From positions 1-49,593 of the forward strand of contig JAHHHH010000057.1 in NCBI GenBank assembly GCA_019359415.1: DNA of 49,593 nt, given 5' to 3'. Positions 114-3,814 of this stretch are shown piece after piece. This DNA comes from Iphinoe sp. HA4291-MV1 (GTDB taxonomy: Bacteria > Cyanobacteriota > Cyanobacteriia > Cyanobacteriales > Nostocaceae). The notes beneath the pieces were generated by a model that saw only the letters and a program-made list of their open reading frames with translations, made no database searches and was not told the origin of the DNA. Within the stretch, counting starts at the first letter, position 1, and each line of letters begins with the position of its first letter. The translations under genes were made by a program, and so were the position numbers.

Positions 114-869
114 GAACCGCTATATTTTGTAGTGGGGACCGGACTGCCCGCTTTCAATTGAAGTAGGGAGCAATCCTCGTCTCCCATTACCATCTTTTGT
201 GCAAAATTGGGATGCTTCCCCGGAGAAACAAATTGCACCTTACGAACATTGAGTTGTCAAGGTTCTCTTGACTCTGCTTTATTTGATCCTTACTTTGGCG
301 AGAGGCTATAACCTGTCACGAATGACAACGAATAGAATTCTTTATGTCTTAGGATAAACAAATAAGAAAATTATCTATTAAGTAGCCGTCATGACGAATT
401 CGTCACCAGAACGAATGAAAAATTTTCTTATCTCCCCTGCTCCCTGCTCCCTGCACCAGTTGCTTTTTCAAGTCAGGTCGGCACAAATAAAGTGAACTAT
501 GTAACAAAATATAAAGCCACTGTAATCTTTGCGATCGCTGAGTCCCTGAGTCCTTACGGACACGCTATGCGGAACGCGTTAGCTCCATAGTGTGAATTAA
601 TCGTGCCGTTCTACTTACACTTAGAGTACAACTAGATATAAGCAAATCGTCACTATGGCGACATTCTCCTAGTTAAATACTAGTTAAGCTTAGTATGACT
701 GGTGTATGGGGTTCAGGATATTAGCATTAGCTATAATATTTAGCAATTACTTGCATTTGCTATTTAGTTCAGTTAAAGTCAAAGTGAGCACCTAAGCGAA
801 ATTCCTGAATGTAATGATTAGGAACTAAAACTGGGTGAAAAGCTGATTATAGACATTCACAGAGGAAAC
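114..869. other. Intergenic spacer with repeat debris
   Basis: No gene is supported here. The stretch holds a TC-rich 'ccctgctccctgctccctg' motif (435-455) common between genes of this genome, a HIP1 site (531-538) and a segment at 545-590 ('ccttacggacacgct...gcggaacgcg') related to the palindromic repeat found again at 26420-26591. The leader immediately before the peptide gene at 870 is AT-rich and probably holds its promoter, but I could not place a convincing -35/-10 pair. Confidence 0.5.
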
Positions 870-1046
870 ATGTCAAATCAATTTCAACAAAATGCTCCAA
901 AACACTTCCGTTCCAGCAAAATTCAAGTTGAAATCAAAGAATTTGCTCCGCAACAAACCAGTAAAAATACCACTACTCAGTTAAATACTGATGCTGATGG
1001 TAGTGACTTAAATACTGATGCTGATGGTAGTGATTTGAGCAACTAA
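870..1046 (+). CDS. Short repeat-bearing peptide, candidate RiPP-like precursor
   Basis: A 58-codon frame starts with ATG four bases after a strong AGAGGA ribosome-binding site (861-866). The N-terminal half (residues 1-36) is mixed and charged, with SKIQVEIKEFAP near residues 16-26, and looks leader-like. The C-terminal part is two exact tandem copies of LNTDADGSD (residues 39-47 and 48-56) followed by LSN and a TAA-TAG double stop. The repeats are encoded by 27-bp units at 981-1007 and 1008-1034 that differ only in the last codon base. The gene lies directly upstream of a JmjC oxygenase and a [2Fe-2S] protein on the same strand. Leader plus repeated core next to an oxygenase is the usual organisation of ribosomally made, modified peptides; the DxDG-S-D pattern also resembles metal-binding loops. 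Function is inferred from context only; I do not recognise a named family. Confidence 0.65.
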   Translation: MSNQFQQNAPKHFRSSKIQVEIKEFAPQQTSKNTTTQLNTDADGSDLNTDADGSDLSN

Positions 1047-1080
1047 TAGTTGCTAATTATCCCATTACACTTAGACGCTA

Positions 1081-1141
1081 AGGGGTAGGGGATATCGTAA
1101 GACCCACCCTTACTCCTAGTAGATTTTCATTAGTTTTTTTT
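1081..1141 (+). terminator. Stem-loop plus T tract between peptide gene and oxygenase gene
   Basis: The arms 1081-1091 (AGGGGTAGGGG) and 1107-1117 (CCCTTACTCCT) can pair over 11 positions with two G-U pairs, with a 15-base loop. A run of eight or more T's follows at 1134-1142, though about 16 bases after the stem, so this is not a textbook terminator. It could act as a leaky attenuator that keeps the short peptide mRNA in excess over the downstream enzyme mRNA. This is inference. Confidence 0.4.
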
Positions 1142-1167
1142 TATTTAAATTGAGAATTATTAGCAAT

Positions 1168-2346
1168 ATGCTGGGATTTAGAGATATACTAAGACCATAT
1201 AGTGTGGAAGAATTTCTAAAAAAGAATTGGACAAGCAAAGCAGTGTTTATATCTAGTGGAGAGCAAAATAAATTTGCTCACCTGTTCTCTTGGGAAAAAC
1301 TCACATATCTGTTGAACTTTCATCAGTTCAAATACCCTGATCTCCGTTTAGCATTAGATGAACAAGTCTTAGATGAAAGTGCAAATACTAATATCATCCA
1401 GCGATGCCAAGAAGGTGCAACTCTCATCCTCAACGGAGTACAGAAACTGATTCCAGAACTGGCTAATTTTGCCTCGGAAATGAAATATGATTTGGGCTAT
1501 GGTGTACAAGTAAACGCCTACTGTTCCTGGCCTAAAAAACAGGGTTTTTCTTCCCACTATGACACCCATGAAGTCTTCATTTTACAAATAGATGGTACAA
1601 AGCAATGGTATGTATTTCCTGACACGATTAAGTATCCTTTACCTGAACAGAAATCATCTTCATTTTCGCCTCCAGAAGGAGAACCTTATTTAACTTGCAC
1701 TCTCAAACCTGGAGATGTTCTTTACATTCCTCGCGGTCATTGGCACTATGCAGTTGCTCTTGATGAACCATCGCTGCATTTAACTTTAGGGGTGCATTGC
1801 AAAACGGGTGTTGATTTTCTGGAATGGTTAGTTAACGAACTGCGTCAGCAGGAAGAGTGGCGCAAAAGTATGCCATTACGTGTAGAGACAGCGGCTGTAG
1901 AGAGCTATGTAGATAGCTTAATTGAAAAATTGAGTAAACATATTGCTCATAACAATATCTCTGATGATTATATTAGTTATCTCGATAGCTTAGGGAAAGC
2001 GATCGCTCGCTACTCTTTACCTTATCAAGCAGGATTTAATATATTTGAACAAGGGACGCAAACCAAGTTCAAAACTGCCAAATTTCAGCGATTTAAAATT
2101 ACCGAACTGCCAGATGGTAGTGGCTACAAAATTGTTGTAGCTGGTAAAGAAGTATCTCTCAAAGGGGTACCCATCTCTCTCGTGGAAAATTTATTCACTG
2201 GAGAAGTTTTTACAGGAGATGATGTCATTAATTGGCTACCAGGTTATGATTGGGAAATTGATATTGTTCCTCTTTTGTCTCTCTTGGTCACCGAAGGCAT
2301 CATTTTCGTTCATCCCTCTGTGTCATATCCTTTTTCTCTCAAATAA
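1168..2346 (+). CDS. JmjC/cupin-4 family 2-oxoglutarate oxygenase
   Basis: The 392-residue product matches the Cupin_4/JmjC (RoxA/NO66-like) protein hydroxylase architecture. The Fe(II) facial triad is visible as HYD (His130, Asp132) and a distal His in PRGHWHYA (about His193), on a double-stranded beta-helix that spans roughly residues 60-215. The C-terminal third ends in a helical/winged-helix-like part (about 310-390), as in ribosomal oxygenases. The family hydroxylates protein side chains with 2-oxoglutarate and O2. A TTG at 1150 would add six residues; ATG 1168 is preferred because MLGFRDILRPYS is the usual family N-terminus, but neither has a good Shine-Dalgarno. It lies 121 bp after the repeat peptide gene and 18 bp before the sucrase/ferredoxin-like gene, suggesting one transcription unit. 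Its likely substrate is the neighbouring peptide (inference). Confidence 0.85.
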   Translation: MLGFRDILRPYSVEEFLKKNWTSKAVFISSGEQNKFAHLFSWEKLTYLLNFHQFKYPDLRLALDEQVLDESANTNIIQRCQEGATLILNGVQKLIPELANFASEMKYDLGYGVQVNAYCSWPKKQGFSSHYDTHEVFILQIDGTKQWYVFPDTIKYPLPEQKSSSFSPPEGEPYLTCTLKPGDVLYIPRGHWHYAVALDEPSLHLTLGVHCKTGVDFLEWLVNELRQQEEWRKSMPLRVETAAVESYVDSLIEKLSKHIAHNNISDDYISYLDSLGKAIARYSLPYQAGFNIFEQGTQTKFKTAKFQRFKITELPDGSGYKIVVAGKEVSLKGVPISLVENLFTGEVFTGDDVINWLPGYDWEIDIVPLLSLLVTEGIIFVHPSVSYPFSLK

Positions 2347-2364
2347 ACCAATCAGTACAGGTAG

Positions 2365-3342
2365 ATGAATACTTTCTTTTGTTCCGACAATTCACGACAA
2401 GCAGGAGAAGATATTATTGGCAGCGCCACCAATAACCAGATTTACATATCAATTGAGTGTCGCACTCCCTGGACAGCAGAAGCCTTCAATTCTAAATGGG
2501 TTCCAGAGAATTTGAGGCTCTTAGTAGCCAAGTGTAAGTCAAGTAAAATCCCAGCAAGATTTCTCTTGATTGCTAATAACTTATCACATAAAGTAGACGG
2601 TACAACTTTATTGATTTATCAGAAAAAAGAGGGACTGAGTAACGGATACCACAAACAAGAGTTTCATCTGGCACATATTGAGCAAGTAGCAGCGGTTGTC
2701 AGAAAATGGTTATCTGGTAAATCTAGCAATTATGAAGTGAAAACCAGTGCAACCAGAGATATTTTAGTGTGTACCCATGGTACCCATGATCTTTGCTGTG
2801 CTAGATATGGTAATCCCTTTTATGCCCAAGCTACAGCAATGTCTCATGATTTGTGCTTGGACAATGTTCGTATTTGGAAATCAAGCCACTTTGGTGGACA
2901 TCGATTTGCACCAACAATAATAGACTTGCCAGAAGGAAGATTCTATGGTGCCCTTGAGCAAGATTCATTTAGATCGATTTTGACGCGAACTGGTGATATC
3001 AACTGCTTGAATAAAATCTATCGAGGTTGGGGAATTCTGCCAGAGTCTATTCAGGTTTTGGAAAGAGAACTCATCCTTCATCATGGATGGGATTGGTTTC
3101 ATTACAAAGTTGCAGGCAGAATCATTGAGGAAAGTTCAGATAAGAATACAATTCTGGCTGAACTAACTGTTGAAAAACCTGATTGTTCTCTTCACACTTA
3201 CCAAGCTAAGCTTGTCAAAAATGACAGTAAGACTCTTCAGCTACGGGGTTCTTGCAATGCCAAGAAAGAGTCATTGTTCGTTAAATATTCTGTAGCTAAC
3301 CTCTCGGTTTTTTCTGAGACGCTTGTAGCTTGTAGTGCATAA
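2365..3342 (+). CDS. Sucrase/ferredoxin-like [2Fe-2S] family protein
   Basis: This 325-residue protein has the hallmarks of the sucrase/ferredoxin-like family (thioredoxin-fold [2Fe-2S] proteins): FCSDNSRQAGEDIIGSA at the N-terminus, the central CTHGTHDLCCARYG (Cys136, Cys144, Cys145) and HFGGHRFAPT (His175, His179). Cys and His in these motifs are expected cluster ligands. The name is historical; no sucrase activity is implied. The start is ATG 2365, 18 bp behind the oxygenase stop, so translation may be coupled. A [2Fe-2S] protein next to an Fe(II) oxygenase could supply electrons or act in modification of the upstream peptide; that role is inferred. The 3' end overlaps a convergent GNAT gene by 47 bp. 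Confidence 0.85.
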   Translation: MNTFFCSDNSRQAGEDIIGSATNNQIYISIECRTPWTAEAFNSKWVPENLRLLVAKCKSSKIPARFLLIANNLSHKVDGTTLLIYQKKEGLSNGYHKQEFHLAHIEQVAAVVRKWLSGKSSNYEVKTSATRDILVCTHGTHDLCCARYGNPFYAQATAMSHDLCLDNVRIWKSSHFGGHRFAPTIIDLPEGRFYGALEQDSFRSILTRTGDINCLNKIYRGWGILPESIQVLERELILHHGWDWFHYKVAGRIIEESSDKNTILAELTVEKPDCSLHTYQAKLVKNDSKTLQLRGSCNAKKESLFVKYSVANLSVFSETLVACSA

Positions 3343-3757
3343 AAACATGACTCACATCCAGATAATCAAATGGCTCTCCTTCTTCGCGGAATCCTAGTCG
3401 CTTGTAAAAGTTGACGGCATGAATTCGTGACATTAATCTCAATGTCTTGAGATTTTTTTCCTGAGCTATTTCTATCAATTTTTCCATGAGTTTTGTACCG
3501 ATGCCTTGATGGCGAAACTCAGGTAGCACGGCGAGATAGGCAATACTTCCCAATTCTTTTGATAGTAAGCGTAGTCTCGCTGAACCAATGACTTTATGAT
3601 CACAAACGGCAACTAGATGAAAAGCGCTATCTTCATGCTTGTCTTTTTCTGTTCCTCTGTCCATTCCTAAAGGTGCTCTCAGAACAAGCCACCTTTGATG
3701 GAACATATCATCTAGTTCTTGTTTATCTTTGACGGGACGCACCTTGATGTTTTGCAT
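3296..3757 (-). CDS. GNAT family N-acetyltransferase
   Basis: The 153-residue protein is a single GNAT domain. The acetyl-CoA binding motif A is RHQGIG (residues 82-87) after the beta-4 strand IAYLAVLPE, and motif B contains VNFYKRLGFREEGEPF. It would transfer an acetyl group from acetyl-CoA to an amine; the substrate cannot be told. The start is the ATG at 3757 with GAGG about eight bases upstream; an in-frame TTG at 3769 is less likely. It is convergent with the sucrase/ferredoxin-like gene and their coding ends overlap. It could be an accessory modifier of the peptide locus or simply a neighbour. Confidence 0.85.
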   Translation of the reverse strand: MQNIKVRPVKDKQELDDMFHQRWLVLRAPLGMDRGTEKDKHEDSAFHLVAVCDHKVIGSARLRLLSKELGSIAYLAVLPEFRHQGIGTKLMEKLIEIAQEKNLKTLRLMSRIHAVNFYKRLGFREEGEPFDYLDVSHVFMHYKLQASQKKPRG

Positions 3758-3814
3758 TGAAATCCTCAATCATAGCAATTCACTAGTTTCTTGCAAAAAT
3801 CCGATTTTAGGGCA

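Follow-up and report, generated by a model that had tools for sequence, protein, structure and literature searches.

The window analysed here, a whole stretch of 49,593 nucleotides from the cyanobacterium Iphinoe sp. HA4291-MV1 (contig JAHHHH010000057.1, from its base 1), carries near its 5' end a cassette in which a short peptide gene (870-1046) is followed on the same strand by a JmjC oxygenase gene (ATG 1168-2346) and a sucrase/ferredoxin-like gene (Suc_Fer, 2365-3342). Judged from sequence, the peptide, with its Asp-rich repeats, is very probably hydroxylated by the neighbouring JmjC enzyme. The locus as a whole is probably a minimal pathway of the type that makes ribosomally synthesized and post-translationally modified peptides (RiPPs), in which a winged helix of the oxygenase would hold the precursor leader, the JmjC domain would hydroxylate the core, and the Suc_Fer protein and a GNAT acetyltransferase would play further roles. 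The peptide is compatible with a RiPP precursor, being short, with a constant leader and a variable or repeated core, and adjoining its putative modifying enzyme. Together these results suggest a family of ribosomally made peptides that the literature searched does not describe. The features concerned are the following:

763-782, plus strand: imperfect palindrome of the type TTGACTT-N6-AAGTCAA, 5' of the precursor gene, 2 of 14 positions mismatched
861-866, plus strand: purine-rich ribosome-binding site AGAGGA of the precursor, with a short spacing (3 nt from AGGA to ATG)
870-1046, plus strand: precursor peptide, 58 residues (sequence, conservation, profile)
915-944, plus strand: leader motif SKIQVEIKEF (class A form), beta-strand-like, proposed docking strand
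981-1034, plus strand: two LNTDADGSD core repeats (sequence)
1168-2346, plus strand: JmjC (cupin-4) oxygenase of ribosomal-oxygenase architecture, 392 residues
1498-1806, plus strand: JmjC_2 domain, residues 111-213, with H130, D132 and H193 (PF08007; alignment)
2065-2319, plus strand: C-terminal part of the JmjC oxygenase (predicted structure)
2365-3342, plus strand: sucrase/ferredoxin-like protein, 325 residues, C136-x8-C145 and H175-x3-H179, bis-His [2Fe-2S] type (PF06999; invariant residues)
3296-3769, minus strand: GNAT acetyltransferase, a convergent gene that closes the cassette (PF00583; conservation)

The elements that an earlier note had read from this DNA were all recovered. The 58-residue frame is preceded by its ribosome-binding site just before the ATG, and the two exact C-terminal LNTDADGSD copies are contiguous (residues 38-46 and 47-55). 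The JmjC oxygenase with its iron triad matches PF08007 (JmjC_2) with E 1.7e-26, and the Cys/His-rich sucrase/ferredoxin-like protein, starting 18 bp past the JmjC stop codon, matches PF06999 with E 2.4e-30. The trio described there was nevertheless incomplete, since the convergent GNAT gene, which is conserved across families and overlaps the 3' end of the Suc_Fer gene, had been missed; nor was the winged helix at the C-terminus of the oxygenase mentioned. The start of the JmjC gene was placed at TTG 1150 by the open reading frame caller, whereas the alignment of relatives supports ATG 1168.

Conservation of the precursor and of the cassette

With the single peptide as query, the short frame proved to be conserved at the protein level in 11 genomes out of 100 (one of them the window's), and the nonsynonymous substitution rate was below the synonymous rate in all 28 pairs among eight precursors. 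A chance short frame is ruled out by this conservation. The same search gave no precursor match in most of the searched genomes of the window's family, which is consistent with an accessory pathway. A profile built from ten peptides and run on 388 genomes of the class had matches in 11 at E ≤ 0.01, seven of them convincing (E ≤ 4e-9) and four (E 0.002-0.01) looking spurious. The precursor-JmjC-Suc_Fer order was kept in the profile-matched loci, the JmjC or Suc_Fer frame being broken in some (L034, L039, L032). Neither the window precursor nor ten related ones matched a described NCBIfam precursor family over the curated cut-off; as the scanned family libraries do not name these peptides, annotators are likely to miss the pathway.

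At E ≤ 1e-10, a JmjC profile had matches in 42 of 388 genomes of the class; a profile with more rows, at E ≤ 1e-60, matched 85 of the 388 genomes searched in the order. The surroundings of most of the strong hits were fetched and 114 loci were scored, or 113 distinct ones, L039 and L102 being identical in sequence. Loci with a window-like peptide at most 1.6 kb upstream of the JmjC gene were called class A. Profile scoring gave 58 class A, 34 class B and 21 unassigned loci, and after L080 (scored B) and L219 (unassigned) had been moved to class A by eye, on their sequence and Suc_Fer gene, the counts were 60, 33 and 20 others. A Suc_Fer gene was present in the fetched stretch of 56 of the 60 class A loci versus none of the 53 others; among the four class A loci without it, L175 and L180 end at a contig edge, whereas L195 and L214 do not. 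The conserved short frame that the earlier note led one to expect upstream of homologous pairs is present at 60 of the 113 distinct loci, including all 56 that have both JmjC and Suc_Fer, and leader and core are conserved across these frames. Two of the three outcomes named by that note as refuting its idea, the lack of a conserved short frame and a repeat that varies freely in sequence, were thus looked for and not observed. A GNAT gene lies near 46 of the 60 class A loci versus none of the 53 others, always downstream of Suc_Fer and convergent when both are present (45 distinct loci). The gene order of the trio recurs in multiple cyanobacterial families and, with the GNAT gene added, most of the cassettes are quartets.

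These counts bear directly on the idea that the enzyme is an ordinary ribosomal-protein oxygenase of the ROXA/NO66 type lying beside a short frame by chance. Such a reading would agree with the whole-chain structural match of the predicted model to NO66, MINA53 and YcfD described below. It is already contradicted by the conservation of precursor, gene order and Suc_Fer linkage across families, and no precursor match below E 0.02 was found at any of the five distinct outgroup cyanobacterial JmjC loci (seven stretches, L104/L069 and L105/L071 each covering one place twice); L068, which is the class B locus L100 and did match, is not counted among them. We consider it highly improbable.

The class A upstream peptides combine a leader of the form S(K/R)IQVEVKE with, mostly, one to three Asp-rich cores of the LNTDADGSD type. 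The leader form [KRQP]Ix[VIL][EQT][VI] and the core form DG(x0-2)D each occur in every one of the 58 different class A precursors, counts that hold partly by construction because the peptides were found by profile, although the profile came from ten peptides and the remaining precursors extend it. Core statistics were computed on the precursors that could be split by pattern, namely 55 class A peptides (out of 57 different ones) and 27 profile-B peptides (out of 33 different ones). In the 55, the number of DG-containing core units was one in 31, two in 16, three in seven and zero in one, and this variation behind a constant leader resembles repeat-core RiPP precursors. In one clade (L180-L194), the gap between precursor and JmjC gene reaches about 0.6-1.2 kb; L183, the sole one inspected, has no obvious gene there.

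In class B precursors, a segment that by eye resembles a signal comes first; it is followed by a motif of the kind SAIQVEVVDL and by repeats, for example NSNSNS, RNNDNRRNND, DVDQNQDVDQ or DYDQDYDQ. The leader motif is common to both classes. For most of the 17 class B candidates, a motif matrix trained on class A gave scores above those of shuffles, with a combined p of 4e-20 that includes one non-precursor (L094) and treats related, partly eye-picked precursors as independent; two candidates had p above 0.05, one of them L094. This last frame, first listed as a precursor, turned out to be a SnoaL-like protein. Among the 20 other loci, seven have, judged by eye, a peptide resembling those of class B (L096, L193, L211, L212, L213, L223, L224), two have DVDVD-rich peptides of double-glycine type (L204, L221) and one lies in a YcaO/ThcOx/Nif11 cluster (L083). 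In a quick tree of 99 rows with labels assigned partly by eye, the labels clustered: class A required 3 changes versus 33.5 in shuffles and class B 4 versus 28.6, and the window fell inside a starred branch of 44 rows, 43 of which are class A.

The oxygenase and the proposed mechanism

H130, D132 and H193 are invariant in 35 aligned JmjC sequences, the window's included, and we take them to be the iron ligands from knowledge of the family. The nearest named relatives of the protein are from Scytonema and Brasilonema. A plasmid search returned 98 records, all below 60% identity, and the 30 listed were all either cupin proteins or unannotated. A first structural model was poor (pLDDT 62) and a second was made from a deeper alignment. 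The predicted model matched NO66, MINA53 and YcfD over the whole chain, with residues 1-384 aligned at a root-mean-square deviation of 6.8, a value which means that domain positions differ. By uniting a JmjC domain, a helical region and a winged helix in a single chain, the model has the architecture of a ribosomal oxygenase, and the enzyme is related to those that modify ribosomes in humans. In the model, the C-terminal part comprises strands 309-313, 319-324 and 327-332 and helices 336-342, 350-356 and 362-375.

In the mechanism that we favour, the C-terminal winged helix would act as a RiPP recognition element (RRE) and grip the leader strand SKIQVEIKEF, so that the Fe(II)/2-oxoglutarate JmjC domain could hydroxylate side chains of the one to three DxDG-type repeats at the C-terminus of the precursor, most likely on Asp (or Asn) at the beta-carbon. 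The bis-His [2Fe-2S] protein would keep the enzyme iron reduced or perform a second redox step, the GNAT enzyme would acetylate the product or the freed peptide, and the leader would be removed.

The choice of Asp or Asn rests on the cores. Two such residues at spacing 2 occurred 179 times in class A cores versus 93 in shuffles (z 12.0) and 235 times in class B cores versus 119 (z 14.2), z values that overstate the effect because related sequences are not independent. This spacing, common to both classes, suggests D/N as the likely target. It argues against a RiPP pathway in which the JmjC enzyme performs another chemistry (oxidation of Leu, Ser or Thr, desaturation, cross-linking or a backbone change) and the [2Fe-2S] protein is a true second enzyme. 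Conserved Leu/Val/Ile, Ser/Thr and Gly are also present in the cores, and oxidative enzymes of RiPP pathways perform varied chemistry; such a pathway nonetheless appears unlikely.

The same cores could be read as those of a small metal-binding (calcium-binding) protein that is hydroxylated and left uncut, the hydroxylation tuning metal binding as it does in EGF-like domains, with no natural product formed. The core [DN]xDxDG...E is spaced like a calcium-binding loop, the form [DNHSG]xDxDG is found in 51 of 58 different class A precursors, a Glu as residue 12 from the first D/N ends many single-core forms, and no protease group is common to the genera. On the other side, the core units vary from one to three while the leader stays constant, the sister cores that lack DxDG (NS repeats, DYDQ, DVDQNQ) share the leader motif, and the DxDxDG form is missing from seven of the 58. 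We regard this explanation as quite unlikely.

Coming back to the leader-guided hydroxylation, the Suc_Fer protein carries the CX8C and HX3H ligand set expected of an Apd1-type bis-His [2Fe-2S] protein, and C136, C145, H175 and H179 are invariant in 14 of 14 Suc_Fer sequences. Suc_Fer was not found near the sister-group JmjC loci; the oxygenase family as a whole therefore does not need it. Its tie to class A suggests that it reduces the iron enzyme or serves a step peculiar to DxDG cores, and a role in assisting the oxygenase is plausible only. That the GNAT enzyme may acetylate the product or protect the cell is a guess.

Several observations weigh against the proposed pathway. Of the enzymes characterised so far, the nearest act on His, Arg or ornithine rather than on Asp. 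In class A, the last 12 residues include His, Arg or Lys in 18 of the 55 precursors (e.g. GGDRH cores), so that the absence of these residues in the other 37, which disfavours His or Arg hydroxylation of the NO66/MINA53/ROXA type, is not decisive. In an hhalign comparison with cyanobacterial PqqD, the winged helix reached Prob 0.2% and E 0.23, which is not significant, versus Prob 0.0-0.1% for other enzyme segments, and a Pfam scan found no RRE in it, PF05402 not being reported there. RREs are described as sequence-divergent (PMC12710340). NO66, MINA53 and YcfD, none of which is a RiPP enzyme, have this winged helix too. To our knowledge, the role of this domain in the three proteins is unsettled.

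Genomic context also counts against it in part. At 10 of the 113 loci the enzyme has no recognisable precursor (L094, L097, L155, L209, L210, L218, L220, L225, L228, L229), the L097 enzyme being shortened and without winged helix. Rhizonema-like genomes (L014, L015, L016, L019) have an intact JmjC gene unlinked from the precursor, which lies elsewhere in three of these four genomes and, at the two loci long enough to tell (L101, L102), adjoins a JmjC copy that is either shortened or broken. No exporter or peptidase group turned out to be generally conserved across genera at the 14 loci compared, the peptidase search being confined to these neighbourhoods. We therefore speak of a RiPP-type pathway, whose product would count as a RiPP in the strict sense only if it were cut and released.

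Comparison with known systems and wider reading

JmjC hydroxylases have a precedent in RiPP biosynthesis: BipG, BpmG and PbsQ modify the precursor in biphenomycin-type pathways (PMC12707348, PMC12257519). Like the enzyme proposed here, these are JmjC or cupin-like Fe/2-oxoglutarate enzymes that hydroxylate a precursor side chain; they differ in that their target is ornithine and that they belong to many-enzyme clusters (MNIO, arginase, B12-rSAM, TldD). The present cassette has the JmjC protein as main enzyme, Asp-rich repeats, a [2Fe-2S] protein and a GNAT enzyme. Asp beta-hydroxylation of RiPPs by other enzymes has been published (PMC13060819, PMC13097080), and cupin-8 JmjC-like enzymes have been proposed for Asn and Leu hydroxylation in cyanobacterial scytocyclamides, which are non-ribosomal (PMC7524897). 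JmjC (PF08007) proteins with RRE-like domains have been noted, with bacterial homologues in RiPP-like contexts (PMC12710340); that remark is about proteins of fish and algae, to which the bacterial homologues are about 30% identical, and the passages in question describe no precursor, cassette or class. Apd1/Aim32 thioredoxin-like ferredoxins share the Suc_Fer family and the CX8C...HX3H ligands but are yeast redox proteins outside peptide biosynthesis (PMC8482512). NO66, MINA53 and YcfD/ROXA act on ribosomal proteins (His, Arg), unlike the cassette enzyme with its linked precursor, which in most cases lacks His, Arg and Lys near its C-terminus. No description of the cassette was found in open-licence literature, and a RiPP class made of JmjC enzyme, Asp-repeat precursor and Suc_Fer appears undescribed in the literature so searched.

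A relative of the enzyme does lie in a recognisable RiPP context. At L083 the JmjC gene starts 2 bp past that of a 475-residue protein that bears domains of the ThcOx and nitroreductase kinds (PF22767, PF00881); close by are genes for a sulfotransferase-like protein (PF13469), a 753-residue YcaO protein (PF02624), an 82-residue Nif11 precursor (PF07862) and a PhyH dioxygenase (PF05721). This is the likeness to YcaO/ThcOx (TOMM or cyanobactin-like) clusters; the difference is that no such gene was seen by eye among the window frames (first 12 kb; four scanned). The RiPP-like character claimed in the earlier note finds good support in genomics, through conservation and L083, whereas the Asp/Asn hydroxylation proposed there is still inferred. 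The L083 cluster spans L083:4459-12899.

If the proposed pathway is true, it adds a RiPP class defined by a JmjC enzyme, provides a leader-guided aspartyl/asparaginyl hydroxylase and suggests a function, open to test, for the winged helix found in ribosomal oxygenases; the enzyme and its peptide would form a compact enzyme-substrate pair with natural substrate repeats. A broader interpretation, which we hold only tentatively and rather doubt, is that of a large cyanobacterial RiPP family run by ribosomal-oxygenase-type JmjC enzymes, with the winged helix as leader-recognition element and beta-hydroxy-Asp/Asn at alternating repeat positions yielding metal-binding peptides. It would embrace subfamilies with DxDG cores, NS repeats, DVDQ or DYDQ repeats and double-glycine-leader DVDVD peptides, and RiPP enzymes would have a peptide-recognition domain in common with the ribosomal oxygenases of humans. 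As to the last subfamily, peptides with double-glycine-like leaders and DVDVDQDFNVDIDVDVDKDID-type repeats were observed directly upstream of JmjC-winged-helix genes (L221:1831-2914, in two tandem copies, and L204:4344-4709); the one scanned had zero Pfam matches.

Neighbourhood and other observations

In the comparison of neighbouring genes at 14 loci, in which the gene groups that cross genera were annotated, the sole cross-genus group besides JmjC, Suc_Fer and GNAT was an ABC-transporter ATPase, at three loci (L033, L037, L039). Single ABC transporters with membrane and ATPase domains were seen beside the GNAT gene of a class A locus (624 residues, L037:3015-4889) and directly upstream of a JmjC gene without recognised precursor (927 residues, L225:57-2840). 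A TonB-receptor fragment that could evoke a metallophore lies near one locus (L034) and is not among the cross-genus groups. RTX-type calcium-repeat proteins (PF00353) were observed beside two loci (L035:3482-5491 and L204:1103-2857). At L101 and L102, the precursor, Suc_Fer and GNAT genes are kept beside the shortened or broken JmjC copy, and the intact unlinked JmjC of the Rhizonema-like genomes has altered winged-helix residues.

T-tailed hairpins below -7 kcal/mol between precursor and JmjC genes were detected in 18 of 58 loci, and the same scan found none there in the window; a terminator is not claimed. The palindrome at 763-782 is possibly an operator or part of a promoter: with at most three mismatches, it was found in 28 of 57 class A upstream windows versus 46 of 285 random windows of equal length. 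A decayed second copy of the cassette is present in the window's own genome (L040:6460-8033): the precursor survives as a remnant interrupted by stops, the JmjC gene as a short 5' fragment and Suc_Fer as an open frame (69% identical), and a similar palindrome lies upstream.

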